Shown piece after piece: positions 5,215 to 29,129 of a stretch of DNA of 29,689 nucleotides. The DNA is taken from positions 1 through 29,689 of IMG/VR virus record IMGVR_UViG_3300025131_000279; one strand, given 5' to 3'. Source of the stretch: a virus. Position numbers and translations under genes: made by a program. How positions within the stretch are numbered: position 1 is the first letter of the stretch; each line of letters starts with the position of its first letter. Under the pieces are notes generated by a model. That model did not search any database and was not told the origin of the DNA. It saw only the letters and a list, made by a program, of their open reading frames with translations.

Positions 5215-5671
5215 GCGCCAGCTTAAGAGACCTTTCCCTGTTGTTAAAATTAAATGGAGAAAGGGTGGCGGCAATAAAGAACTAGCTTATATAGATGCAA
5301 GAGATGTGATGGATAGGCTAGATTCTGTCTTTGGTATAACTGGTTGGCAAACTGGCTATGATTTTATAGGAGACAGAATGATATGTAGTCTAGTCTGTAA
5401 GATAGGAGAAGAGTGGGTTGCTAAATCAGATGGGGCTGATGATACTAAAATAGAATCGGCGAAAGGTGGAATAAGTGACTCATTAAAAAGAGCAGCAGTT
5501 TTGTGGGGAATCGGGAGATATCTCTATCATCCAAGAGCATTTGATAAAGATAAGAACCCTGCATCCTGGGCTACACCAGAAGGATTTGATGCTCTGATGG
5601 CAAGTAAAGCATCAGTAACTAAACTGCATACAACGGAGAAGATAGATGGCAGCAAAAAAGAAAGTAGTTAA
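5189..5671 (+). CDS. Rad52/Rad22-like single-strand annealing protein
   Basis: Residues 33-60 (AYIDARDVMDRLDSVFG followed by GW) and 78-113 (KSDGADDT, then KGGISDSLKRAAVLWGIGRYLY) match the Rad52/Rad22 fold of phage annealing proteins such as Sak. These proteins form rings on single-stranded DNA and anneal complementary strands. The length of 160 suits a phage version lacking the eukaryotic tail. GAGGAA lies upstream of the ATG. The exonuclease gene follows after one small gene, giving the usual annealing-protein/exonuclease pair, with SSB just after. Confidence 0.85.
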   Translation: MTQTIKEIERQLKRPFPVVKIKWRKGGGNKELAYIDARDVMDRLDSVFGITGWQTGYDFIGDRMICSLVCKIGEEWVAKSDGADDTKIESAKGGISDSLKRAAVLWGIGRYLYHPRAFDKDKNPASWATPEGFDALMASKASVTKLHTTEKIDGSKKESS

Positions 5672-5861
5672 AAAGAAAGTTAGAACACAAGAAGATATTA
5701 AACTTATAACTTTTCTTAATAAAGTAGCAAGAATGTGTAGGGATTGTCATGAAGTTGGCTCTCCACTAACGCATGAAGTTGTAGAGATGGAGAGCATGTT
5801 ATGGCGCTTTGCTGATGATAGAGGTTATAACAGAGAGCATTTCTATGGCGACTTTGAATAG
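5646..5861 (+). CDS. Small protein with lysine-rich N-terminus, 71 aa
   Basis: The frame overlaps the annealing protein gene by 26 bases. The first twelve residues are nearly all Ala, Lys and Val (MAAKKKVVKKKV), like a DNA- or RNA-binding tail. The rest is a mixed-charge helical stretch with a CRDC pair near residues 31-34. It sits between the two partners of the recombination pair, which suggests a DNA-associated job, but no domain is recognised. Confidence 0.65.
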   Translation: MAAKKKVVKKKVRTQEDIKLITFLNKVARMCRDCHEVGSPLTHEVVEMESMLWRFADDRGYNREHFYGDFE

Positions 5862-5870
5862 GGGAAGGTA

Positions 5871-9384: not shown

Positions 9385-9387
9385 TTC

Positions 9388-10188
9388 ATGAAAAAGAAAG
9401 AACCAAAAGACTTACTGATAATACCAGATTGTCATGCTGCGCCTGAGTATGATAACAAAAGATTCTCAGCGCTTGGCAACTTTATAATAGAACAACAACC
9501 AGGAATAATAGTTTGCTTAGGAGACTTTGGGGATATGCCTAGCCTATCATCTTATGATAAAGGCACCAAAGGATTTGAAGGCAGGCGATATAAGAAAGAT
9601 ATACTATCGGTTATAGATGCACAAGAAAAACTCTTTGCGCCTATAAAGAAATTTAATGATGTGAAAAGAAAAAGAAAGGAGAAGCAATATAAACCAAAAC
9701 TACACATGTGTCTTGGTAATCATGAAGATAGGATAGAGAGAGCTGTCAACTCGGCACCGGAATTGGAAGGAGCAATAGGATTAAGCGACTTACAATATGA
9801 AAAGTTTGGATGGAAAGTAACACCTTTTAAGAGCTGTTTATCTGTAGATAATATCATGTTCTCTCATTACTTTACATCTGGTGTAGCAGGCAGACCAATA
9901 AGTTCAACCCATGTAGGGTTTCACTTGGTATCTAAACTGCACTGCTCAGCGGTGCAAGGACATTCGCACTTGTATAATCACGCAGAACAAACTAGACCAG
10001 ACGGGCAGAAAATCTTCGGATTATCTGCAGGGTGCTATTCACATCCACACTATTCTGAAAGTTGGTGTAGAGATACAGAGTATAACTGGTGGAGGGGAGT
10101 GGTTTCATTAAAGGGGTTAGATGGAGAAGGCTACTACGATGAGATTAGTTCTATAACCCAACGTAAACTAACTAGGAGTTATCTATGA
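9388..10188 (+). CDS. Calcineurin-like metallophosphoesterase
   Basis: The two-metal phosphoesterase motifs appear in order: D14-x-H16, G45-D46-x2-D49, G110-N111-H112-E113-D114 and G191-H192-S193-H194. These coordinate the two metal ions that hydrolyse phosphomono- or diesters. The substrate cannot be read from the sequence; candidates include DNA ends, nucleotides and signalling nucleotides. The gene starts 3 bases after the nrdJ stop and overlaps the next gene by ATGA. The length of 266 is usual for phage members. A lysine-rich stretch near residues 88-102 might contact nucleic acid. Confidence 0.88.
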   Translation: MKKKEPKDLLIIPDCHAAPEYDNKRFSALGNFIIEQQPGIIVCLGDFGDMPSLSSYDKGTKGFEGRRYKKDILSVIDAQEKLFAPIKKFNDVKRKRKEKQYKPKLHMCLGNHEDRIERAVNSAPELEGAIGLSDLQYEKFGWKVTPFKSCLSVDNIMFSHYFTSGVAGRPISSTHVGFHLVSKLHCSAVQGHSHLYNHAEQTRPDGQKIFGLSAGCYSHPHYSESWCRDTEYNWWRGVVSLKGLDGEGYYDEISSITQRKLTRSYL

Positions 10189-10428: not shown

Positions 10429-10674
10429 GATACTTGTCGCCCCCGAAAGGGGGCGTATTTTTTTAACACACCCACGAGGAAATGCATGGGTAGCAAACCA
10501 ATCACCACTCTCATCTTTCGTACACGCAACCTTGATAGTATCCTTATCTTTATATATAAGATATCCATAAGTATAGAAAGTTGGAGGAATAACCTCCTCA
10601 AGTTTTTCCCACCCACACGTTGCAAATATATCACGCCACTCTACCTCTACTAATAAAGGCTTCTTTACTTTCAC
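10363..10674 (-). CDS. Small phage protein of unknown function, 103 aa, GTG start
   Basis: This is the last gene of the minus-strand operon. It starts with GTG, sharing one base with the stop of the giant gene upstream. Residues 1-78 look like a compact conserved domain: an N-terminal VEVEWRDI strand, a GYLIYKDKDTIKVA hairpin and an ending FPRGCVKKIRPL, a layout I associate with small phage proteins of unknown function. The last 25 residues are polar and low in structure. They are encoded across the plus-strand terminator and opposite the 28-residue frame. No function is known to me. Confidence 0.75.
   Translation of the reverse strand: MKVKKPLLVEVEWRDIFATCGWEKLEEVIPPTFYTYGYLIYKDKDTIKVACTKDESGDWFATHAFPRGCVKKIRPLSGATSISSKKQVDNKTRNENITSIPEN
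10438..10464 (+). terminator. Intrinsic terminator of the plus-strand operon
   Basis: A seven-base perfect GC stem, CGCCCCC (10438-10444) and GGGGGCG (10449-10455), closes a GAAA tetraloop and is followed by TATTTTTTT. This is a strong rho-independent terminator for rightward transcription. On the minus strand the hairpin is not followed by a T run, so it should not stop the leftward operon. It lies 9 bases after the last plus-strand frame. Confidence 0.93.
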
Positions 10675-13600
10675 TAGAATAACCTTTTAAATCTCTTGAG
10701 ACTTTCAGCCCACTTCCTATGTTCTTGTATGATTTTAAGTATATGTTCTCTGTACTCATTAGCAAGTCTTTCTCTCTTTTCTCTGCTCAGGCTTGGATCA
10801 CTCAACATCCGCTCAGCCCTCTGCTCTATTTTTCTAATCTCTCTTTCCTTAAAATACAAAGCAGTATCTACATCCTGTGGCCCCATCTTTTGAAGGCTAA
10901 CACCGAACCATGCAAGAGTGGCGTCCTTCATTGTGTACCTTGGCAGCCCATCCCTATCTACATTCCCATCAATAATATCAGCAGCCATCATGGTTTTAAT
11001 TAACGGTCCGCCTCCTGTGCTAATATCTCCCGCCTTATTGCGAGGCATAATCATTGGTGGAATCATATAACTAGCTACAAACATCATCATATCTTGATAC
11101 CTTTGATGCACTGGATCAAACTCATTATATATAGGCTGTCTAGTAAAGGGGTCCTTATTAAGTTTAAGGGCAATAGGTATTTCAGCAGGCCCTGTAAACA
11201 TCCCTATGCTCTTATAGATAGCATCACCAAATTCAGCCTTTGCTACATTCTTAGCGAGGGCTGTATGAGCGCCCCAAGGTAAGAAGAAACTTACATCCCA
11301 CGCCTTCCATCTGTTGTTCTCATCCTTATACGGAAAGACCATAGTGCTAAACTCTTTCTCCATATAGTCAGGTAAGAAATCCATCAAAGCGTCCCAATCA
11401 TCCTCATCCAGGTCATCATTCTGAGACAAGAACATTTCCATTAGCAGGTAAGGTAACGCAGCATATTTAAGGGAAGCGAATGGATGGTTCTTTATATTTC
11501 TAGCCATCTGAGCCATCACCTTTGCATTAAAGGTAATAAACGGAGAGCCTAATGGTAGGGTCCTTAGCATCCTAATGCCCTGTGAAACATTACCATAGTC
11601 TAGAAGCGCTTCATTAGCTAGCTTAGCTGCCTCGGCTTCTTTCTTGCCATGATTCTCCATGAGGTCTATCATCTTAGCAACCTTAAACAATACCTCTGTC
11701 TTCTGGTATGCCCTGCCCCCAACATCCCCATAGTCATTAAAGAATATCCTAGCTCTAGCCCACATACCCTCGAAGCTATCTCCTTTAGCCTTTACTGTAG
11801 CTAACTCCCTATCAATCTGACCCAGTTCTGTAGCTGCAAACGTAGTTGTTTCAAGACCATACTTTCTAGCAAGCTGCATGTATTTGCCATTGGTAGATAC
11901 ATCATGCATAGCTTTACTTACCGCACCTGGAATTCTTAAGAAGTTTGTTCCAGATACGTTCATTAGTATAGTGTTAGATATCATATTCCTAACCTGAGTT
12001 GGAATATTCATTGGGACTTTAGTGTACTTAAAGGTAGCTTGCGCTCGACCACTCCACTTTAGGAGCGCACCCCATGAGGGATTACCTGTTATACCAAGAC
12101 CATTTATATCATTCCATATATCCTTATGCACCCACAGCTCACGCATAGCGCCGTACCTAGGAGAGTCAGGAACCTTCCTGTAGTTATCCATGTTAAGCCC
12201 ACGCATATCTACACTAACCTGATCAGCTGCTGCATTCATTTCTGAAGAAAGTTCTAGCATTTCAGCTGCCCTTGCGGGGTCAATCCTCTTGCCAGCATTA
12301 GCTCTGGTAGATATATCCGACGCCAGATTCTTAAAATAAGCGGCTGTCCCTATCATATTTCTGAAGGTCATTATCTGACCAGGCAATACCCATTTGTTAT
12401 TACCAGGATCACTGGCTATATAGCTAAGGTATTCTATGATAGCTAAGTCACTACCTGCCATAGTAAGATACCTGCCAGCCAAGAATGCTGGATCATCTAT
12501 ACGACCAGATATAACATCATTCAGAAATTTCTCATGATCTTTTCTATGTTTAGTATACGTAAGACTTGACGCTCTAAGACCACCAATACCTATCCTATCA
12601 CGCCCACCCATTACGTGTTCCATATAAACACGGGGTAAATACTGGTTCTTCCATTCAGCATATTGAGCATCAGTAATAAGACCCGCAGCAACTAGCCTCT
12701 CCCCCATGCTAGCTATCTCTTTCTTTGTCTCTATTACCTTTTCCTTTATACTGACAGATGGAGCTGTAGGGCCAGCCCTGGTTCCTCTTACTACGGTTTT
12801 ATGTTCAGCAAACTTAACCTTTCTAGTTGGGAGTTTAGACGGGTCAGCATTCCTGGTAGTAAAGTATTTATATATGGCTTTCTTTTCTGTGGGTGTAGCC
12901 TCGTTAAGAACATCAAAAACTATCCTACCTGTGTTAGCCCATTCTCCTACCTTTCCCTTGGTAAGCATACGTTTAGCCTCTAAAAGAGAATACCCTTCTA
13001 CAGCCATCAAAGGTTCAATCCTTCTCTGCATCCACTTAAGCGCTGAGTTTGCACGAGCAGTTCCGATCCTAGACTTAACAACCTCTCTAGCTGTCTCTCT
13101 TTCTAACCTTCTAGACTCAGTTATAGCAGAGGAATTAGGTTGACTTATAACTTTCTTAGTAGAGAATATACCAGTACCAGAATCAAATGATAGATCATCA
13201 ACAGATTTATATTGGTTATCATCCAGAAGAATCCAGCTTTTACTACCAACATCTTCTGCATCATTGGTATATTCTATTGAATCGTAACCCTCTTCTTTTA
13301 AGAGCGCTCTTAATTCCCTAGAAAATTTTGCGTCCAAGCTAAACATTCCAGCTATATCACTCTCATCATGTAAATACTTCCTAGTTGTAGCATTGCTTCT
13401 AGCAAGTTTAGATATCTTCTCCCATACAACCTCTTGTGCCTCTGGGGAATTGTATGCTGCATCCCCCCTTAGAACTCTATTAGCATGAGTAAACCAAGCA
13501 GTTGGGCTACTAAAGTTTCCTAGGTCTCCAGTTATAAAAGGATTCTGTACATTTATATATCCACGCCTTATATTAGCCCCCTTCTCAAACCATGTGTAAC

Positions 13601-16600
13601 CAACCTCTTTCTGCATACCTAATGAATCAAATAAACCCTGAGCATCAGCTAAATTATCTGATGTTCTTAGTCGAAGCTTAGGGTCCCAACTAATAGCTAT
13701 CTTGTCTAGGTCACGATTAGAAATCCTAGACTCCCACCCAGGTTTCCACGCTTCCACCTCATCAGCTAACTCAGCCAAGGCTTCACTCTCTTGGATTGGC
13801 TTATCTCTAAAGTGTTCTGATGCAGATATATTAACAGCAGCAATAGAGGTCCCTACATGTAATCCAAGTTGGGTCTTCTCTATTAGAGGAGCGCTCCAAT
13901 CGCTAGGAGTTCCATGATACACAGGTTCTTTTATTATAGAACCATCTAGAAACTCCTTCCTTTTCCTATCCCTAAACCTAGACATATTCTTGGAATCACC
14001 ATGCCTTTCTAAGGCTAGTATACCAGAGTGCCAAGTAGAATAACCAATAAGATTTACAATATCATCAAGAGTTACATTTGAAACATTCATATCAGTTCCA
14101 AATACCTTATTGAAAAATGTTTTAAATGCATTCTTTATCTTATCTAGTAATCCTTTTCTAGAAGGAGAGTCTAAGGCTGGTTGCTTGATCTCTACTACAT
14201 GAGCAAGAACCTCTTCCCAGAACTCACGCCTAACGTGGAAATTAATATGCTTGGCTGCTGGGTCAAACGGTCTGCCAGTATCAGCTTTCTTATACCCATA
14301 GTTACGCATTACCCTAGCAACAGCTGTATTAACTATGTCGTCCCCATTCTGCCCTAACTTATAAAGCTCATCTAGAACTGAGTTCCATTCGCTACCGCTG
14401 AATACATCTCTACCAAAGTGTACCCCTACCTCATGGAATAACAACCCCCTTACATCTTTGGCAGTCATGTCAGAAGATATTTTATCTCGTATAAAATAGA
14501 TAGTTCCATTGCCTCTAGAAACAAAAGCCTGTGCAGTATCAGACGCACCCATATCCTTTGCTTTGTTTCTGTCTATGAAGTTTATAAACCCTATCTCTTC
14601 TAGTCGTCTTGCTCCCTTATCCCCAAAGATACTTCTAACCTGAGACCTAACTAACTTCTCTGCCTGCCCAGGAGAATGGAATGTTGTTGCCTTGTTAAGA
14701 CGCCTGCTCTCTACAACATCATCGTTCTCTTTCGTTTCAGTCAGATCATTTTTTGTGTATGCATCCTCCATAGGAGAGACGTACCACTCCATTATGGAAG
14801 CGGCAATATCTTCTTTCTTTCCTTTGGGGTTATAGTTAAAGTCGGGATTTAAAGCTTTAATATTAGCTGCTAGACTTTTAACTTCATCGACTGAATAGCC
14901 GTTTTGTGATGGTGGGGTGGTTAACTTACTGTGCAGGTCAGCTGGATTCTCATTAGCTAGAATAGAATCAACGCTTACCTTATCTGTAGACTTCCCTTTT
15001 TTTCTATCGGCTCTCTCTTTTGCATACTGACGGTCTAGAGCAGACTGTTCTTCAGCAATACTGTATCCAAACAACCTATCAAACTCTGCCTCAGACAGTT
15101 CTTTTTCTGTCTCTTTATTGTATTCGTTACGATACCCCTCAAATAATATATTTCCTTCATCGTCTAATACATCTAACGATTCATCACGAATTTCAGTTAC
15201 TCCGGCTTCATCAAGAGCGGAATACCACGCCTGTTTGGCTTGCTCGTTTAAGGAGATGGCTGCACTTTTCGCAGTTGTTGTAGAAGCGTTGTATGGCTCT
15301 ACACTAACTATATCATTAGGAGATATACTTTCTTTTCTAATTAACCACTTCTTATCTTCTCGGGTCTTCCCCCTATTGGGGTCAAGATACAACTGGCTTC
15401 CATCATTGGTTACTTTTATTATAGATACAGCCCCAATCTCATCAGCCTTCCAGCTAGCTCCAGACTTACCTATACCAGAATTAAGAAACTTGGCAAACGA
15501 TCTTGCATCTTGTATGTTGTCAGCCACATGAATAGAATCAGCAACACCTGGAGCGTATTCTAGTCCACCTCTATCTCTAGAAGATTTTATCCCTTCTTTT
15601 TTAATCTTAGCTACAAATGCTGTTGGGGTTACGTGATATAAAAACTCAGCAGGATTATTATAAGCTACTTCTTCATCTACTTTTTTTTTAGTATCTAGAA
15701 AGTCTCTGATAGGACCAGTGTCCTTACCTTTGTCATCTAGAAAATCTACCCATCTTTGGAGGCTCTCGTCAAAGTCAGCCTGGGTTGCACCTGGTACTAC
15801 AGTAGATTTATAGTTCCTTCCATCATTAGTGTTGAGGTCTTTTATCTTCTTGCGCCACCTTACTATATCATCCTTCTGTTCATCGGTAAGTCTTTTCCTA
15901 GCTGTCTCCCCACTTAGAAGTTTGTCTACCCTACGCTGATAAGACTGCTGCATTTTTAATGCTTCTTGGTCATTGATAACGCCCATGCTAACTATCTTGG
16001 GGTCAAGGCCAGCGCGAGTAGAAATTTCATTACCTAAAAATACGTGGAAGATTTCTGGGTTAGCATATATAGATGAGCTGATAGCCTGCGCTTCTTCTTT
16101 TGTCGAAACCATGAATGGAGTAAACGTGTTGAACCTTGCAATGCTTACTTCGCTCTTTCTAAAGCTAGTACTTTTCTGAGCATCCGGACTTGTAAGATCG
16201 CGCTCTTCATAAGATACCGTAATAGAATTTCCACCAAGATCAGTGGCCTCTTCTATTACTTCTCTTTCTAGTTCACTGTCTATTTTTACATTAGGATTTT
16301 TAATCTTTTTCTTTTCATTAAGAGTTGGGAGAGGCATTCCAGCGAGCACCATCCTTGGAGGTCTTATCACAACACCAGCCCTATCTGGCTGACTGGCAAT
16401 CCCTCTTTCTGTGGCTGCTGCAACTCTAGCTGCAACTCGTTCACCGCCCTCTTGCTCTTTTAATCTTTGCTTCTGTATAGCTAGTAGGGCCTTCTCAACA
16501 TCTGCATCAGTTACCCTGTTAGCAACATAACGCGCCCTATCTCTCTTGGCATACCTCTTATAAGGCTCTCCTCTAACCATCACAATGTGAGGCTTCTCTT

Positions 16601-19600
16601 TATCTAGAGTTGGATCGTAGTCTATTCTAACCGGAACACCAGCTGAGTTATCAGTATCCTCAGCCCACTTTTGTTTTTTAGGTTCAGTCTCTACAGTAGT
16701 AGTCTTGGTTTTAGCTACTGCTGCAGGCTCCCTTCCTCGAATTTTTTTCTGTTCTTGAGGGGTTCCATGAGTCTTTAATAAGCTAATCTTAGCAGCAGGT
16801 AAAGTAGTAAAAGGTACTGGATTGCTTATCTTGTCATACGTGGTGTGGTACTCACCCACCTCGTCCATAGTTATTTTAGCAGGGGCACCTGCAATTCTTG
16901 CAGTCCACGATTTACCATCCCTACTCCTTCTGAACTGCCTGAAGGTAGACTGACCCTTTTTATCAGACTTCTTTTTCTTTCGTGCGTCTGGTTGAGCAAC
17001 AACTCCCGCCTTAACAGCATCGCCAGCCTTTCCTTTAGGCTTGGCATCCTGAGTTGCAGCCACTCTTTTTGCCTCGTCTTTCACTGCAGCAGTAGTTCCT
17101 GGAGGAACTGAACCGCGCTTCTCACCAGCCTCAACCATTGCCTGATTATCTTCTTGCGTAGCTTCGTCTACAAAAGCAGATTCCGCAGCATCTCTATCAG
17201 TGTTCATTGCCTCAGCTAAAGCATCTATAGCTTGATCAGGCTCCAGCTTGCCATCCTTTACAGAGTCTATAGCATCTCTTGGGCTGCTAATTACAGGTGG
17301 CGCAGCATCTGCTAGAACTGATGGGTCTTGAAATGCTTCTCCTTGTGGAGCTTCGTCTGCTAGTACAGATGGATCAGCCCCATATTCTGTACCTTCGGTA
17401 ACGGGAGCAGTAGGCTTGTCATCAGGTTTCTTTTCAGTAGCAGGGGCAGCTTTAGGTGCGGTAGCAGCCTTAGCTTTTTCGGCTGTAGCTGCTGCAACTC
17501 TAGCGCTATCTATCTCGTTAATACCCTTCCTAACTGTATCTAAATACTCTGCCTTCGCTTCTGATGCTCCTATCCTATCAGCATCTCCTATCTTATTACC
17601 TCTAACACGCATCTGAGCCTTCATCTCAGAGATGGTTAGCGGCCTTGTTTCAAACTCAGCTATAGTTTCAGAAGCAGAGGCTTGGGCTTCTGCAACAGTC
17701 TTATTAGTTTCTCTCTTCTCAAACTCAGCCTGCTCTTTAGCATCCTCAGCTTTTCTTTTTCTTTCTGCTTCCGCTACTGCTCTCTCTTCTGCCCTTGCAT
17801 CAGCAGCTGCTTTTCTCTCGTCGTTTATTCTTGTACGTTGTTCTTGTTCTCTGCGCTGAGCAGCCTCTTCCCTCCTCTCAGCCGCCTGTTGAGCAACCTC
17901 TTCCCTCTTAATTCTTTCTGCTTCTAGCCTATCCTGTCTAGCTTTGTTTAACCTCAGACTTAAAGCGCTTTTTCTAGCCTCTTGTTGCCTGCTCCTTGCA
18001 TCAGCAAGAGCTATGTCCTGATTAGTTGTTGAAGAGCCAGGTGGTATAACATCTATTAGGGGCTTGTCTTGCACAGCAACATCACCCCATGCAGCATCAC
18101 CAAGGGCTGCTTCTTCATCAGCTATTCTCTGAGCCTCTGCTTGTGCAGCAGCAGCAGCAGCATCTTCAGCATCCGCTTGTGCTTTAGCCCGTGCCTCTGC
18201 TTGTGCGACTCCTTGCTGTTCAAGATTTTTTCTTGTCGCTTCGCTTAGGGCTAAGTCTTCCTCTTCATCCAATCTTTGATCGAGAGTCTGTTTGGGAGAA
18301 GGCTCTTGTCTAGCAACATCAGACCATGCTATCTGGTCTGGCGTTTTTTGCATAGCAAGAAGTCTGTCTCTCTCAGCCTTCTGTTCTGCTAATCTTTTCT
18401 TTAGCTGCGTAACTATTCTTCTTTTGTTAAACGCGCTAGTCTCTTCAATAGGCTGAGCTAGCTGAGCTTCAGTCTCAGCAATAGCAGCTTCTTTTTGTGC
18501 TATTTGTTCGTCTAACTGTGTGAAAAGCTCAGGCCCAGTTGGGGTATATGGCTGCTGTGCAGGCTCTTCTGGTTCAGGGGTAATTGGTGTGGTAGGAACT
18601 TGTTCATCAGTTGGTGGGGTTATAGGAGGAGCAGCTTCTGGGGTTGCTGCGGGAGCAGCAGACGCTGTCTCTTCCAGCTGGGTTGCAATCTCAATCTTTC
18701 TTGCTTCTAATGAGGCTATTTCTTCTTTAAGCCGTATAGCTTTTCTATTGGGGGCGCGTCCCCTAGGTTTTGCTACCTCAGTCTCAAGCTCTGCTTTGGC
18801 TTCTGTTAACCTCTGTTCTACAGTTCCAAGTTCTTCTTGCAAAGCTTCTGGAGTCGGGGCAGCCTCTTCTTCAATAGGCGGTACTATTTTTTCTATATCA
18901 GCAACAGTATAAGAAGTGCTTACTTTTTTCCTTTTTTTGTCTGCTTCTTTTTCTAAATCTTTTATTTTATTTTCAAGAGATACCTTTCTTGCTAATACTT
19001 TTCTCCCTCCTCCAGCTTCTGCTTGAGCTTCAAGATTTTTTATTTCTAATTTAATTGGTTCAATACTAGAATTTAAATCTGAACTTATCTGTTCTTGAGC
19101 TGCCTCTCTAGCAATAATAACTTCCTTAGCATTCCCCTTTCCAACAAAAGCGGTTGCGCCTCTTGCGGTTGCACCTAAAGCACCGCCAGCTGCAGCTGCA
19201 TCCCATATACGATTCCATTGATCCGGTGTAACTTCAAATATATTTTCTTTATCGGCCTGTATATTTACACCTATAATTATATTCCATTCTTGAAGACCTT
19301 CAGTAAATGCTTCTACCGTAAGTCCTCTTGCTCCCTCACGTAGAAATCTTGAGAGATGATTCAATCCTCCATTTCTAGAAAGCTCTTGCAAAGCTTTTTC
19401 TTTAAATTCAGCAACTCCTCCTTTAAAAAATTTCTTTGCAACCTTAAAAGGAGTTATAACATCTAAAGCCCCATTAATTCCAGCAACAGCAAGTACAACA
19501 GCTGGGTTTATATTTTCTTTTCCAAGCTCTTCTCTTGATTCCCCATATGACTCACCTAAGGCAAATGTTGAACTTGCGCCCAGAGCAAAAAGAGCTGGAA

Positions 19601-20039
19601 GAAGAGTGCCACCGCTACCAACTGAAGCAGCTAGTGTGCCTGCCGCTATTGTTAAGGTTGGAAGGCCGTCAACAATAAGAGTATCAGCAAGCCATTTTCC
19701 AAAGTTATCTCCAAATACTACCTCTCCTTTAGACATAGACTCTCTTTGGTAACCGCTTACTTCCTTATAATTTTCTTGAGCAAGAGCATATGACCAATCA
19801 GAAACCTTTTCAGCACCAAGAAAGTCGCTAACGCCAGCTGCCACATTCCATAACAATCCTTGGAAAGCATCTACTGCTGCGCTACCACGCCCATAATCAG
19901 TCTTTTCAGGAGCTGGAAGTTTAGCTTCATCTTCTCGAACAACATTACCCCATACGGCAGTAAGCTCCGCCGCAGTTGGCAGGCTCTCTTGCATTTCAGA
20001 AAGCTGTTCAGTAGTGAAAGGTTCAGTTGTCAATGCCAT
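10674..20039 (-). CDS. Giant polyvalent virion protein with zincin and ART domains, 3121 aa
   Basis: Likely injected with the DNA. Visible parts in order: a W-G-N-V motif at 30; hydrophobic segments near 115-165 and 178-197; a long Ala/Glu/Lys/Arg/Gln coiled-coil and disordered stretch (about 300-870) with W-S-D-V at 572 and W-G-D-V at 651; a decapeptide repeat at 889 and 905; an ART-like segment starting YHVTP (1468); a zincin with HEVGVH (1869-1874); an ART-PolyVal-type domain starting YHGTP (2041) and ending with GYDSIEY and QYKS near 2270; then a polyvalent-associated region (YLPR, TQVRN, TLPLGSPF). The gene takes nearly a third of the window and replaces the large ejection proteins of T7. 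It lacks an obvious transglycosylase, which is in the preceding gene. Domain functions are family inference. Confidence 0.9.
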   Translation of the reverse strand: MALTTEPFTTEQLSEMQESLPTAAELTAVWGNVVREDEAKLPAPEKTDYGRGSAAVDAFQGLLWNVAAGVSDFLGAEKVSDWSYALAQENYKEVSGYQRESMSKGEVVFGDNFGKWLADTLIVDGLPTLTIAAGTLAASVGSGGTLLPALFALGASSTFALGESYGESREELGKENINPAVVLAVAGINGALDVITPFKVAKKFFKGGVAEFKEKALQELSRNGGLNHLSRFLREGARGLTVEAFTEGLQEWNIIIGVNIQADKENIFEVTPDQWNRIWDAAAAGGALGATARGATAFVGKGNAKEVIIAREAAQEQISSDLNSSIEPIKLEIKNLEAQAEAGGGRKVLARKVSLENKIKDLEKEADKKRKKVSTSYTVADIEKIVPPIEEEAAPTPEALQEELGTVEQRLTEAKAELETEVAKPRGRAPNRKAIRLKEEIASLEARKIEIATQLEETASAAPAATPEAAPPITPPTDEQVPTTPITPEPEEPAQQPYTPTGPELFTQLDEQIAQKEAAIAETEAQLAQPIEETSAFNKRRIVTQLKKRLAEQKAERDRLLAMQKTPDQIAWSDVARQEPSPKQTLDQRLDEEEDLALSEATRKNLEQQGVAQAEARAKAQADAEDAAAAAAQAEAQRIADEEAALGDAAWGDVAVQDKPLIDVIPPGSSTTNQDIALADARSRQQEARKSALSLRLNKARQDRLEAERIKREEVAQQAAERREEAAQRREQEQRTRINDERKAAADARAEERAVAEAERKRKAEDAKEQAEFEKRETNKTVAEAQASASETIAEFETRPLTISEMKAQMRVRGNKIGDADRIGASEAKAEYLDTVRKGINEIDSARVAAATAEKAKAATAPKAAPATEKKPDDKPTAPVTEGTEYGADPSVLADEAPQGEAFQDPSVLADAAPPVISSPRDAIDSVKDGKLEPDQAIDALAEAMNTDRDAAESAFVDEATQEDNQAMVEAGEKRGSVPPGTTAAVKDEAKRVAATQDAKPKGKAGDAVKAGVVAQPDARKKKKSDKKGQSTFRQFRRSRDGKSWTARIAGAPAKITMDEVGEYHTTYDKISNPVPFTTLPAAKISLLKTHGTPQEQKKIRGREPAAVAKTKTTTVETEPKKQKWAEDTDNSAGVPVRIDYDPTLDKEKPHIVMVRGEPYKRYAKRDRARYVANRVTDADVEKALLAIQKQRLKEQEGGERVAARVAAATERGIASQPDRAGVVIRPPRMVLAGMPLPTLNEKKKIKNPNVKIDSELEREVIEEATDLGGNSITVSYEERDLTSPDAQKSTSFRKSEVSIARFNTFTPFMVSTKEEAQAISSSIYANPEIFHVFLGNEISTRAGLDPKIVSMGVINDQEALKMQQSYQRRVDKLLSGETARKRLTDEQKDDIVRWRKKIKDLNTNDGRNYKSTVVPGATQADFDESLQRWVDFLDDKGKDTGPIRDFLDTKKKVDEEVAYNNPAEFLYHVTPTAFVAKIKKEGIKSSRDRGGLEYAPGVADSIHVADNIQDARSFAKFLNSGIGKSGASWKADEIGAVSIIKVTNDGSQLYLDPNRGKTREDKKWLIRKESISPNDIVSVEPYNASTTTAKSAAISLNEQAKQAWYSALDEAGVTEIRDESLDVLDDEGNILFEGYRNEYNKETEKELSEAEFDRLFGYSIAEEQSALDRQYAKERADRKKGKSTDKVSVDSILANENPADLHSKLTTPPSQNGYSVDEVKSLAANIKALNPDFNYNPKGKKEDIAASIMEWYVSPMEDAYTKNDLTETKENDDVVESRRLNKATTFHSPGQAEKLVRSQVRSIFGDKGARRLEEIGFINFIDRNKAKDMGASDTAQAFVSRGNGTIYFIRDKISSDMTAKDVRGLLFHEVGVHFGRDVFSGSEWNSVLDELYKLGQNGDDIVNTAVARVMRNYGYKKADTGRPFDPAAKHINFHVRREFWEEVLAHVVEIKQPALDSPSRKGLLDKIKNAFKTFFNKVFGTDMNVSNVTLDDIVNLIGYSTWHSGILALERHGDSKNMSRFRDRKRKEFLDGSIIKEPVYHGTPSDWSAPLIEKTQLGLHVGTSIAAVNISASEHFRDKPIQESEALAELADEVEAWKPGWESRISNRDLDKIAISWDPKLRLRTSDNLADAQGLFDSLGMQKEVGYTWFEKGANIRRGYINVQNPFITGDLGNFSSPTAWFTHANRVLRGDAAYNSPEAQEVVWEKISKLARSNATTRKYLHDESDIAGMFSLDAKFSRELRALLKEEGYDSIEYTNDAEDVGSKSWILLDDNQYKSVDDLSFDSGTGIFSTKKVISQPNSSAITESRRLERETAREVVKSRIGTARANSALKWMQRRIEPLMAVEGYSLLEAKRMLTKGKVGEWANTGRIVFDVLNEATPTEKKAIYKYFTTRNADPSKLPTRKVKFAEHKTVVRGTRAGPTAPSVSIKEKVIETKKEIASMGERLVAAGLITDAQYAEWKNQYLPRVYMEHVMGGRDRIGIGGLRASSLTYTKHRKDHEKFLNDVISGRIDDPAFLAGRYLTMAGSDLAIIEYLSYIASDPGNNKWVLPGQIMTFRNMIGTAAYFKNLASDISTRANAGKRIDPARAAEMLELSSEMNAAADQVSVDMRGLNMDNYRKVPDSPRYGAMRELWVHKDIWNDINGLGITGNPSWGALLKWSGRAQATFKYTKVPMNIPTQVRNMISNTILMNVSGTNFLRIPGAVSKAMHDVSTNGKYMQLARKYGLETTTFAATELGQIDRELATVKAKGDSFEGMWARARIFFNDYGDVGGRAYQKTEVLFKVAKMIDLMENHGKKEAEAAKLANEALLDYGNVSQGIRMLRTLPLGSPFITFNAKVMAQMARNIKNHPFASLKYAALPYLLMEMFLSQNDDLDEDDWDALMDFLPDYMEKEFSTMVFPYKDENNRWKAWDVSFFLPWGAHTALAKNVAKAEFGDAIYKSIGMFTGPAEIPIALKLNKDPFTRQPIYNEFDPVHQRYQDMMMFVASYMIPPMIMPRNKAGDISTGGGPLIKTMMAADIIDGNVDRDGLPRYTMKDATLAWFGVSLQKMGPQDVDTALYFKEREIRKIEQRAERMLSDPSLSREKRERLANEYREHILKIIQEHRKWAESLKRFKRLF

Positions 20040-20049
20040 CTAGTATTCT

Positions 20050-21795
20050 CTATTGAAGTGGTTGTGTAATAACTTCTTGTAATTCTGACCCAGGAAGTTG
20101 TGTTATATTTCCTAGTTGATCTGAAGGTTCTCCTTTCTGTGATGTCCTTAGTGGTGGTAACCCTCTCCATATATTAGCTAGCCTTGCATGAAACTGATCT
20201 ATAGTAATACGCCCATTAAGGTAAGCATCTATACCAGCATCTTCTATTCCAAGCTCCATAAACTTATTCTGGGTTGCCTTATTAAATGGCATAGCATCCA
20301 ATTCTTTTTTGTTGTACCCAAGATATTTTTTAGCATTGTCGATTAAGAACCTTCTCTTGAATTGCCCTATACCAACAGCTTTATCCCCATACTTTTTATG
20401 AACCTCACCAATAGTCATCGAGGTAAGATTAGGATCACCTTTGGTTGATCCAGCAACAGCATTGTACCCATGAGCTGCAGACTCTGCCTTATGAATAATA
20501 GATTTAATGCCCTTCATAAGTCTATCCTTGCGCTCGTAAGAAGTCTTAGGTGGAGTTGTTCTATCTACTTCCCATTCTGTTAGGGCATCAACAGCGGGTC
20601 CGCCAGCCTCGCCAAGAGCGTCAATAGCCTGCGTCGATCCTATCCAATCAGAACCTAGTGTATCCCCATACTGTGTAGCCGAACTTGGAGGAGGCTCAAG
20701 ATTAAGTTCGCTTCTTGGTATAGCATTCTGAGCTTCCAAGTCTACTTGTGAGATACCACCTGGATAAATAGAATCACCGCTAAGTACTCCTCTAGGTGTT
20801 CCCATAAAACCTGTGCCTGTATTAGACGCGAGTGATCTCTCATTAACATCCGCGTCACCCGAAGCTGCTATTTGTTCTCCTAAATCTTGATCAGTTACAC
20901 CAGCTTGTGGCGCATCGTCTTCAGACTCTGCTGGTGGGCCTTCTGGTCCGTAGTACATAAAATCACCAACTTTCTTCCCGAACTCTTTTACTTTTGGTAG
21001 GTGCTCTTGAATAAACTCAATTGCTTTTTCCGGAGAACTTTTTATAGCTTCTATGGCAGCCTTGTTTCTTTCCATATCATTTTCAAACGCATCTTCCGAA
21101 ATGCCCAATGCTACGTCAGATAGCAGTCCTTTATCCAGAGCTATCTCATATATCCTACGCAGAGCCTGTGTATTTGTTAATGACTCGCCTTGAGAGGGTC
21201 CATTATCTGCTTTGAATGATGCCCAATCATCCATTAATTCCATACCCTTTTCACCAGAGTACTTTGACCACCAATCCCAGGCATTTGACCAAAAGCCACC
21301 CTCGCCCTCGTCTGTAACTGTGGCGGCTACTTTAGCAACTTCCTCACCCTGTTTAGTAAGATCACCATCTGGAGTAAACATACCAGCCATAAGATGACTA
21401 ATGTCTGATGCAGGGAATCCAGCCATCATCAATAACTGTCCACCATAACGCTGCATTTGTATTGCAATTTGCTCTTGATCCCTTTCAAGTTTTTTTACCG
21501 CAGCGTCGTCTGTAATTCTTGTGTATCCAGCTTCACCCCTCAATCTGTTATTAATATTTTTATATTGATCTAGCAACGTGTCAATGGTCTTACCAACAAC
21601 CTCAAACTGTCTATCAGATTTTGCGGCTGCAGTTGCCCACTCCTGCTCCTGCAGTTTATACCCCCACATCTTTTCCGCCTTCGCTTCTTCCCACGCGGTC
21701 TTTCTTGCCCAGTTCTCACTATCCGTAACTCCGGCACCAACCGCACTAAAAAATCCTCCTAATCCTGCTCCAGTCGCACCAGATAAAAGACCCAT
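20050..21795 (-). CDS. Virion protein with C-terminal lysozyme-like domain
   Basis: The last 150 residues look like a lysozyme or muramidase domain: a Glu at 438 (HKAESAAHGYNAV), then LTSMTIGEV and AVGIGQFKRRF, matching the E...YNAV...SMTIGEV...AVGxxQF order of phage GH104-type enzymes. The rest is Gly/Ala-rich at the start, helical and acidic in the middle (about residues 60-300), and Pro/Gly-rich as a linker (300-400). In position and layout it is an ejection protein that locally opens peptidoglycan during DNA entry. It shares one base with the gene before and lies 10 bases before the giant gene. The exact glycosidase family is not certain. Confidence 0.82.
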   Translation of the reverse strand: MGLLSGATGAGLGGFFSAVGAGVTDSENWARKTAWEEAKAEKMWGYKLQEQEWATAAAKSDRQFEVVGKTIDTLLDQYKNINNRLRGEAGYTRITDDAAVKKLERDQEQIAIQMQRYGGQLLMMAGFPASDISHLMAGMFTPDGDLTKQGEEVAKVAATVTDEGEGGFWSNAWDWWSKYSGEKGMELMDDWASFKADNGPSQGESLTNTQALRRIYEIALDKGLLSDVALGISEDAFENDMERNKAAIEAIKSSPEKAIEFIQEHLPKVKEFGKKVGDFMYYGPEGPPAESEDDAPQAGVTDQDLGEQIAASGDADVNERSLASNTGTGFMGTPRGVLSGDSIYPGGISQVDLEAQNAIPRSELNLEPPPSSATQYGDTLGSDWIGSTQAIDALGEAGGPAVDALTEWEVDRTTPPKTSYERKDRLMKGIKSIIHKAESAAHGYNAVAGSTKGDPNLTSMTIGEVHKKYGDKAVGIGQFKRRFLIDNAKKYLGYNKKELDAMPFNKATQNKFMELGIEDAGIDAYLNGRITIDQFHARLANIWRGLPPLRTSQKGEPSDQLGNITQLPGSELQEVITQPLQ

Positions 21796-22373
21796 TACAC
21801 TACCTCCTCTATAACCCTATTACCAGCAACCTGCCTAGGTTGTGGATCAACCCCACCCCTAAGCATTTCTTTAGTTAGTTCCAACCAAGAGTCTCTAGTT
21901 ATTTTAGTATCTTCAGAATCAATATTAGCATTAATAGCATACGTCAATGCTTCCCCCATAAAAGCTTGGGCCTCATTGTCGTCTTTAAACTTTCTTATAT
22001 CCTTCTCCGCTACAACTTCTGTTAATTGATGAACCACGCCAGACTGCATGTCAAGGTACATTTCTCTAGAAATTTCCGCACCCTCTTCTTCTGCCATCAA
22101 CATCTCATTGCTTAGCAAATTGCCAGCCATGTCCCCTACAGCCTCGGCTAGATTGTCTTTTGAGCCTTTAAGTTCTTCAATAATCTCATCCCAACCATCC
22201 CTATAAATGTACATATATATTTCAGATGTGATAGAGTCTGCCATTTGAGCCTCTTCTGGACTAGCTTCTGGAAAAGGGCTTTGTTCCATATCGCCATCAA
22301 TAACAACCTGCTCTCCTTCTGCCTCTTGTGGAACAGACGGCGGTATTGGAAATGATCTTGCTGGCTGTTTCAT
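21795..22373 (-). CDS. Acidic virion-module protein of unknown function, 192 aa
   Basis: The first 45 residues are Pro- and Glu-rich and probably disordered; the remainder is acidic and helical with regularly spaced Met, Leu and Ile. There is no signal, membrane segment or cysteine motif. It overlaps the next gene by one base and the gene before by ATGA, within the run of ejection-type genes. Small acidic helical proteins in this position often accompany internal core proteins, so a chaperone or core role is a reasonable guess, but only a guess. Confidence 0.72.
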   Translation of the reverse strand: MKQPARSFPIPPSVPQEAEGEQVVIDGDMEQSPFPEASPEEAQMADSITSEIYMYIYRDGWDEIIEELKGSKDNLAEAVGDMAGNLLSNEMLMAEEEGAEISREMYLDMQSGVVHQLTEVVAEKDIRKFKDDNEAQAFMGEALTYAINANIDSEDTKITRDSWLELTKEMLRGGVDPQPRQVAGNRVIEEVV

Positions 22374-27337: not shown

Positions 27338-28029
27338 TGCGGAACTACTGTAAAATTAGATATATCCTGCGCCTTAGAAAACCTTCTATTCTTTTGCCCC
27401 GGTAACTGATCAGCCTCAAGCTTGTCTAGCAAATCCTCAAATTCCGCTAAAGCACCTGATAAAATTTCAGGGGCGTCCTCGTTCTCAGCATAATATATTT
27501 TAGCTCTAGAGGTTATTATCTTGTGGAATCTAGACGGTATCGGTGATTCACTAGAATCAGCTGACAACTCAGTTGGAGACTTCCAGTATGAAGCTGATAT
27601 TGCTGTTACAGCATCGGGTGTAGGATATACATCTATGACATTATCAGGTTTAATAGAAAAAACTTCTGGGGTTGAAGAGGCAACCACGCCTAATTTATAT
27701 TCTAGGCTGTAATCATCCCATACCATATACTCTAACTCTTGATAATCATCAGTTCCTTTGCTAAAAACAAAAGAGTCTAATTTCCAATTACCTAAATTAG
27801 ATGGTGATGTTAGTGTAGAAACACCAACGGAAGGTGTAAGTGTCGCCTCGGTCCATAGAAAATCCCAGTTAAACCACCTACTTTGTATGTCTAAATCAGC
27901 TTGTTTTACATAACGAACTACATTATTCTCCTCTTCGGAGAGAGAAGTAGAAGTGACACTGGAAGGACCAGTTCCTGGTATGCCTATATCTCTAGCCATG
28001 TTCTTACACAAAACTAAGTAAGTACTCAT
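27334..28029 (-). CDS. Head-tail adaptor protein, SU10 type
   Basis: The N-terminal stretch LCKNMARDIGI, then VVRYVKQADLDIQSRWFNWDFLW, and later SASYWKSPTELSAD and IPSRFHKII, follow the layout of the SU10/phiEco32-type adaptor (a functional counterpart of T7 gp11) that joins portal and tail. The length of 231 is typical. It overlaps the glycosyltransferase upstream and the hub N-terminal gene downstream by ATGA each. Its place directly before the hub is as expected for podoviral tails. Confidence 0.8.
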   Translation of the reverse strand: MSTYLVLCKNMARDIGIPGTGPSSVTSTSLSEEENNVVRYVKQADLDIQSRWFNWDFLWTEATLTPSVGVSTLTSPSNLGNWKLDSFVFSKGTDDYQELEYMVWDDYSLEYKLGVVASSTPEVFSIKPDNVIDVYPTPDAVTAISASYWKSPTELSADSSESPIPSRFHKIITSRAKIYYAENEDAPEILSGALAEFEDLLDKLEADQLPGQKNRRFSKAQDISNFTVVPQ

Positions 28030-29129
28030 ATCAAATTTTTCACTATTCTATTGTAAACATCGTTAGGGTTTATCTTTGCAGCGCACATTGCTCCTCCAGT
28101 CTCACTATCCCTGTTACAGGTGTCAAATCCATAATGCATTTTATGGCATGGAAAACAAAAATTATCATAATGATCAGGCTCTAAAGAGCTGGTATTATTC
28201 CAATACTTAGAAAGATTTTCTTTTGAGGAATGGGATAACATAACTATTTTATGGCATTTCATAGTTGACGCAGCATTCAGTACTCCAGTTTCTGGTCCTA
28301 TAACAATAGAGCAATGATCTAAAAACGAAAGAGTTTCTCTTATAGACCAATTTCCTGATTTTGTTATAATCCTATCCTCTTTTTCCCAACCCTGTTCAAG
28401 CAACTTACAAAGCTCATCTCCGACAGTAACAAAACAAACATCAGGCCTGTATTTTAGAACCTTATTTATTACATTATCAGTCCAAGGATATACTTTATGT
28501 ACAGACGATCCAGACAAAGACCATAAAATAACATGCTTCTCCCTGATGCTTCTTCTAAAATCCCTGGCTATTTTTTTTTCACTATCTAAAGGATAGAACT
28601 TAGGACTAAAGATATGCGGAACACCCGCTATATCATGAGTTCTTTCCATATAGTTTACATTACATTCTTCATGTAAAGTATCCTTATCTAGATTGAACCT
28701 AGGGTCCCCTTTTACTGCAATCTTATCGCCATTCCTTAGTCGTGAAACCCTGTCAGGCATAACCAATAAAGAATTTTCTATTGATTCAGAAAGCTGTATT
28801 ACCTTGTCAAATATATTATCAAAATGTTTCCAGTATTCAGTAAGCTCATTCTCTGGAATCATCTTTGTAGTTTGAAATAAAATCTCATCCACATATGGAT
28901 TGCTACTTAGTATATCTTTCCCAACCTCTGTAACATTTACACATACCCTATACCCTTGTTCTTTAAGTAAAGGCAGTATAGAACTAGCCTGTAATGTGTC
29001 CCCAAAAGCCCCGTACCTTATAACACATACGGTCTTTTCCTCTCTTATACCCCCAAAATCTTCTGGGGTATAATCACTAACTTCCCTTCCGGGAATATTT
29101 ATTGTTATCACTTTTTTTAGAAAGCCCAC
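28026..29129 (-). CDS. GT9-type (heptosyltransferase-like) glycosyltransferase
   Basis: The N-terminal Rossmann half has VCVIRYGAFGDTLQASSILPLL (from about residue 34) and the C-terminal half has SIVIGPETGVLNAAS (near 277-291), which are the GT9 signatures of ADP-heptose-LPS heptosyltransferases. The tail has spaced cysteines (CFPCH, DTCN, AMCAAK), possibly a metal site, as in other phage GT9-like proteins. The start is a GTG at 29129 with no strong ribosome site; a GTG six codons later is possible. It is an outlier in the virion operon. It could glycosylate host LPS or a virion protein; the sugar cannot be told. Confidence 0.85.
   Translation of the reverse strand: MGFLKKVITINIPGREVSDYTPEDFGGIREEKTVCVIRYGAFGDTLQASSILPLLKEQGYRVCVNVTEVGKDILSSNPYVDEILFQTTKMIPENELTEYWKHFDNIFDKVIQLSESIENSLLVMPDRVSRLRNGDKIAVKGDPRFNLDKDTLHEECNVNYMERTHDIAGVPHIFSPKFYPLDSEKKIARDFRRSIREKHVILWSLSGSSVHKVYPWTDNVINKVLKYRPDVCFVTVGDELCKLLEQGWEKEDRIITKSGNWSIRETLSFLDHCSIVIGPETGVLNAASTMKCHKIVMLSHSSKENLSKYWNNTSSLEPDHYDNFCFPCHKMHYGFDTCNRDSETGGAMCAAKINPNDVYNRIVKNLI

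Follow-up and report, generated by a model that had tools for sequence, protein, structure and literature searches.

The window, by which we mean the whole stretch of DNA analysed, is a 29,689-base IMG/VR virus record. A leftward virion cassette fills its right half and closes with a giant ORF of 3121 codons, which takes up 31.5% of the record, nearly the third given in an earlier note made from this sequence alone. The genes to the left of the giant ORF run rightward, convergent with it, and are replication genes (Rad52 family, DnaB-like helicase with Toprim, ribonucleotide reductase). The features discussed below are the following:

10674..20039, minus strand: gene for the giant polyvalent, ejection-type protein, 3121 aa; intact ORF
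10677..13052, minus strand: conserved helical C-terminal core, residues 2330–3121, LPD38-like and related to N4 virion RNA polymerase (vRNAP) C2 (model, profiles)
13110..14075, minus strand: second, fixed ART-PolyVal-like domain, residues ~1989–2310, with an insertion (PF18760; present in relatives)
14160..14687, minus strand: zincin-like metallopeptidase domain, residues ~1785–1960 (motifs, AlphaFold2 model, PHROG)
14199..14216, minus strand: EEVLAH, candidate third zinc ligand, residues 1942–1947 (invariant in alignment A3)
14418..14435, minus strand: HEVGVH, a HEXXXH variant, residues 1869–1874 (motif, alignment)
15108..15665, minus strand: exchangeable cassette slot, residues 1459–1644, here holding ART-A (breakpoints common to seven contigs)
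16140..18905, minus strand: charged, low-complexity linker, residues ~379–1300 (composition)
18906..20039, minus strand: N-terminal domain (NTD), residues 1–378 (divergent allele in contig L003)
20050..21795, minus strand: 581-aa gene with a lysozyme/endolysin-like C-terminal region, likely ejection partner (PHROG, tblastn)
21795..22373, minus strand: 192-aa gene, candidate small ejection partner (gene order; weak match to an unknown PHROG)

The giant ORF is a gene and not a chance reading frame, since the frame stays open in near relatives on other IMG/VR contigs, the seven marine contigs L002–L008, with 95–99% amino acid identity over residues 1645–3121. All close relatives are metagenomic contigs, of which the majority are incomplete and several are cut by contig ends.

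HEVGVH at residue 1869 is the sole HE-motif of the protein and is of the HEXXXH type, not the canonical HEXXH, as in a subset of the metallopeptidases of polyvalent proteins (Iyer et al. 2017, PMC5512222). Its H, E, G and H do not vary across 12 aligned relatives, and neither does the EEVLAH further downstream. In the AlphaFold2 model, which spans residues 1442–2337 (pLDDT 51.7 overall, ~60–80 around the zincin), the elements follow the zincin order, namely a helix, three short strands, the HExxxH helix and the EExxAH helix. The zinc protease motif reported in the earlier note is thus well founded, in its HEXXXH variant. The zincin slice matches a PHROG head-and-packaging family (E 6e-5); no peptidase family was found for it in the Pfam or PHROG scans, and a sequence search of solved structures with profiles A3 and A4 returned nothing credible.

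The ART-PolyVal-type domain proposed for this protein is found as well: PF18760 matches residues 2151–2282 with E 0.014 for the whole protein and E 2e-4 for a 336-aa slice, the slice score (22.6 bits) being below the Pfam gathering cut-off of 31.2 bits. In this fixed ART (ART2), the strand-1 H is present and strand 2 reads GLHVGT in all aligned members, with H, on a by-eye reading, at the place where the H-Y-D type has Y. The other ART-like segment (ART-A, YHVTP..., residues ~1465–1600) matches the PHROG RNA 2'-phosphotransferase family at E 0.0045 and has no Pfam match; KptA is the best PDB match found by Foldseek for the 1442–2337 model (probability 0.98, E 0.19, query range not printed). 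Due to the weak scores and the low-confidence model, we grade ART-A as a probable, not proven, KptA-like ART. The zincin that had been predicted was recovered by motif alignment and structure model, and the ART-PolyVal-like domain by profile search, while the N-terminal ART stands as probable only.

At least two disparate domains are hence present, the zincin motif set and an ART-PolyVal-like domain that scores below the Pfam gathering threshold, and the gene is a late virion gene, which closes a cassette whose PHROG matches include tail and endolysin families. Both properties agree with the earlier assignment to polyvalent proteins of the injected kind, which are predicted to enter the host (Iyer et al. 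2017, PMC5512222), and an ADP-ribosylation-based host takeover by the giant protein is plausible. The idea that the mix and order of domains are new, by contrast, finds no support: the combination of a zincin with one or more ARTs in a single phage protein is already catalogued in the same survey (PMC5512222). One sequence could not reveal that the N-terminal ART and the NTD are replaceable, nor the relationship between the C-terminal third and N4 vRNAP.

What defines the family is the C-terminal stretch of 792 residues, for which relatives in viral contigs range from 77% down to ~24% identity. One further relative lies in a named phage record, and profile A4 identified five distant ones in genome/MAG contigs; an earlier scan of genome contigs with profile A2 had yielded no relatives. 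The model of this C-core (pLDDT 68.8, pTM 0.66) matches 36 viral models at E≤1e-3, among them large polyvalent proteins by name, with the names LPD38, ART-PolyVal, RelA/SpoT and Zeta toxin represented. The Foldseek match to an LPD38-named model has E 1.8e-7, and there is no Pfam sequence match to LPD38 in the giant protein. N4-like vRNAPs match the C-core model more weakly (E 1e-3 and 4.5e-3). N4 vRNAP is an ejected protein, and N4 gp50 is organized as NTD, RNA polymerase, HExxH domain C1 and helical domain C2 (PMC12633501). Comparison of A4 (21 relatives) with ten N4-like vRNAP C-terminal domains using hhalign gave a score of 55.1 over 244 colinear columns (probability 73%), against a maximum of 30.2 in 30 column shuffles and 17.5 for the reversed profile, placing the core with the N4 C2-type helical domains. 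Only the profile–profile comparison worked, single-sequence N4 comparisons being uninformative; the N4 zincin (HELVH), used as a single sequence, gave no hhalign alignment with the zincin of the window. In both N4 vRNAP and the window protein an HE-motif lies ahead of the core.

The N-terminal relation to vRNAPs is visible through relatives: searches with the NTDs of L014, L009 and L003 hit the N-terminal part of the PHROG virion RNA polymerase family with E 4e-14, 4e-9 and 9e-4, respectively. For the NTD of the window protein itself, no family was matched directly; it is 37% identical to that of L003 over 441 alignment columns, part of which is supplied by the conserved ends. In nucleotide terms, the near-twin L003 falls to ~56% identity between residues ~37 and ~378 and is back to 89–100% beyond, a pattern which marks the NTD, as judged from the alignment, as a second exchange site of the giant protein besides the slot. 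A single-subunit RNA polymerase domain was not detected in the protein by Pfam, PHROGs and NCBIfam scans. Because the C2 match and, through relatives, the NTD match are of N4 type and no polymerase domain was detected, the giant protein resembles an ejected protein of vRNAP type that lacks the polymerase, and is not itself a vRNAP. The gene order (small protein, ~580-aa lysozyme-like protein, giant protein) also resembles that of the N4 16.5 kDa, 66 kDa and vRNAP genes. The 581-aa product matches endolysin/lysozyme-like PHROGs (E 4.7e-6) and, by tblastn, lysozyme-like proteins of Rhizobium phages. Residues ~300–1250 consist to 65–89% of A/E/K/R/Q/D/P/S/T and are low in hydrophobics, consistent with the long disordered stretches that had been noted earlier. 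A further break in colinearity with near relatives occurs in the linker near residues 867–992.

Wherever a contig aligns to both flanks of the slot, its DNA alignment with the window ends at amino acid 1459 and restarts at 1643–1645; L006 begins just before the slot, and its right edge matches those of the other contigs. Apart from ART-A, three states are found. L002 and L003 have a 44-bp linker (gap state) instead of ~551 bp, with flanks of ~98–99% DNA identity. L004, L005, L006 (right side) and L008 carry ART-B, which is 25% identical to ART-A, and L007 carries a cassette that we call module C. None of the three cassettes was found in 50,697 phage records, and no second copy of ART-A was found among the viral contigs searched. 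ART-A, being seen in the window contig only, may thus be an assembly artefact. Extending this suspicion to the entire polymorphism, as a product of metagenome assembly or strain mixing, would fit the metagenomic origin of every sequence and the singleton status of ART-A, but the other states recur in separate metagenome records (gap in two, ART-B in four, module C in five), their ORFs are open and their breakpoints are common, and we regard such an origin as highly improbable. We found no mobile-element mechanism that would account for the slot; similar GATGAGGCAG stretches beside the L007 module C are too short to support one.

The slot states also bear on the idea that we are dealing with a fixed multi-enzyme takeover protein, in which the zincin and both ARTs form a stable, co-adapted toolkit. 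Indeed, the zincin and ART2 are kept both in near relatives and in lineages that are ~50% identical in the core. However, phages that are otherwise 96–99% identical lack the N-terminal ART or have something else in its place, and therefore ART-A does not belong to a fixed set. The idea is contradicted for ART-A and survives only for the zincin and ART2; for the protein as a whole, we give it little credence.

Module C is present not only in L007 but also in L026, L027 and L054, which represent one lineage, and in L052, from a third lineage; L025, otherwise similar to L026, L027 and L054, is without it. Between lineages, module C has dS values of 0.21–0.54, whereas in the same comparisons dS of the carrier is 3.06, infinite and 3.14 for the C-core and infinite, 2.34 and infinite for the zincin (Nei–Gojobori). 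Since vertical descent under protein constraint would not lower dS in this way, module C has most likely been transferred horizontally between lineages. Its docking point differs: in L007 it occupies the slot, whereas the L027 copy is N-terminal to a conserved patch (window residues ~1118–1182) which precedes the slot. Profiles of ART-A/B and ART2 gave no support for module C being an ART. The corresponding region of L014 has a GGDEF domain (E 2.4e-10), implying that the cargoes are biochemically diverse.

These data can be set against a mainly structural role, in which the giant protein is a conduit or motor for DNA ejection, the ART and zincin segments have decayed or act as packing domains, and changes of cassette reflect neutral drift within a disordered linker. 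The short relatives L034–L042 (~990–1170 aa) keep the core without an HExxH motif, the linker tolerates insertions, and ART2 apparently has H (by eye) instead of the expected Y, all of which would agree with such a role. On the other hand, different in-frame modules sit at the same breakpoints, two of them are related ART-like domains, L014 has its GGDEF domain, and dN/dS of module C is ~0.3–0.46, suggesting that the cassettes are selected, folded domains. We consider the structural role unlikely, although less so than the fixed toolkit.

Given that slot states swap at common breakpoints and that module C moves between lineages, the sequence comparisons suggest that the giant protein combines a conserved chassis for ejection with a bay, between the NTD and the zincin, in which effectors are exchanged. 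In the explanation that we favour and hold to be reasonably probable, it is a polyvalent protein built on a chassis related to N4 vRNAP, in which recombination replaces an exchangeable cassette and delivered ARTs hit the host. The chassis would comprise the NTD, a long flexible linker, the zincin and the helical C-core, and the interval between NTD and zincin, the position of the polymerase in N4, would here be taken by the linker with an exchangeable cassette of ~190–290 aa. The giant protein would be packaged and then ejected with the DNA, the zincin may process the polypeptide or help to deliver it, and both ARTs, that of the cassette and the fixed one, would modify host targets in the first minutes, while recombination between phages would replace the cassette and leave the chassis in place. 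Cassette turnover on a stable chassis is what would be expected if the payload were under host-specific selection. A broader possibility, which we put forward more tentatively and think somewhat doubtful, is that the N4 vRNAP-type chassis is a general payload carrier with a true docking bay, which would take the RNA polymerase in N4-like phages and an ART, GGDEF or other cassette in the phages described here, with cassettes circulating among marine phages on an arms-race timescale. If so, the cassette type would predict the host defence or target addressed.

Like the phage polyvalent proteins (PMC5512222), the window protein is a giant multidomain late-gene product with a zincin, of a kind that includes HEXXXH, an ART and an LPD38-like fold. 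Unlike those proteins as described there, its family shows exchange in one slot between near-identical genomes; the passages of Iyer et al. 2017 (PMC5512222) that were consulted contain no single-slot domain exchange of this sort, and there recombination as a source of cassette variability is considered for a kinase locus. Polyvalent proteins have so far been known mainly from static domain architectures. Natural populations here provide direct evidence of one domain slot turning over while the delivery chassis is kept, and of cassette movement between diverged phages. The gap, ART-A, ART-B and module C states in the same phage background amount to a natural experiment on ARTs that are presumably injected, and the findings connect the N4 ejection apparatus with effector delivery in general. 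Relative to the open-licence PMC literature, the new element is the dynamics, slot turnover in near-identical phages, which may nonetheless have been described earlier.

With N4 gp50 (PMC12633501), the protein shares the order of NTD, payload, HExxH-type domain and helical C2, the C2 profile match, the N-terminal match through relatives and the neighbouring small and ~66 kDa virion genes; it differs in that no RNA polymerase domain was detected and the bay holds ART-like cassettes. The T-even proteins Ip1–Ip3, which inhibit different type IV restriction systems (PMC12373910), are a variable, head-packaged and injected set directed against diverse host defences. Ip1–Ip3 are separate small genes with a packaging signal, whereas in the window case domains are swapped inside one giant protein. 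The pairing of a constant delivery frame with changing cargo recalls these T-even proteins and would be expected if the cargo follows host defences. MuF polymorphic toxins of temperate phages (PMC5576092) are also phage head-module proteins with variable effector domains. They are defined by the MuF domain, for which the giant protein gave no match in Pfam and PHROG scans, and the variable part of the window protein is an internal slot.

T4 Alt is an ART that presumably reaches the host together with the DNA. It belongs to the R-S-E class (PMC5512222), whereas both ARTs of the window look H-type and a separate R-S-E-like candidate is present in the relative L052. The segment in question (L052:1117-1680), a second module beside module C, matches the PHROG RNA polymerase ADP-ribosylase family at E 0.04 and two unknown families at E 2e-5 and 1.5e-4, and its VFRAG, FISVTT and SEKEFLV segments read like an R-S-E class ART.

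Further segments were noted ahead of the zincin or core in other relatives. The incomplete L013 protein (L013:2-12367, at least 4122 aa) has helicase- and methylase-like sequence followed by a HEVYGH zincin motif and the same C-core. L033:6206-12277 displays, by eye, GGDEF-like and NPPF adenine-methylase-like segments ahead of the core, and an HExxH motif was not found in it. The 75%-identical relative L011 (L011:2-796) has yet another, different segment ahead of the zincin, without a family assignment. A ParB-like assignment of the L024 segment GHEGRGRA had no profile support.

Elsewhere in the virion cassette of the window, a 367-aa ORF (28026-29129) reads glycosyltransferase-like, with no Pfam match. 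In the left half, ~200 bp over a 71-aa lysine-rich ORF (5666-5869) drop out of the alignments with L004 and L008, whose sequences on either flank are 97% identical to the window. At 9387-9397, between the ribonucleotide reductase and metallophosphoesterase genes, L002–L004 and L006–L008 have ~264 extra bp; in L003, an ORF of ~102 codons (15513-15818, minus strand) spans the extra 264 bp, and the flanking alignments overlap by 11 bp.
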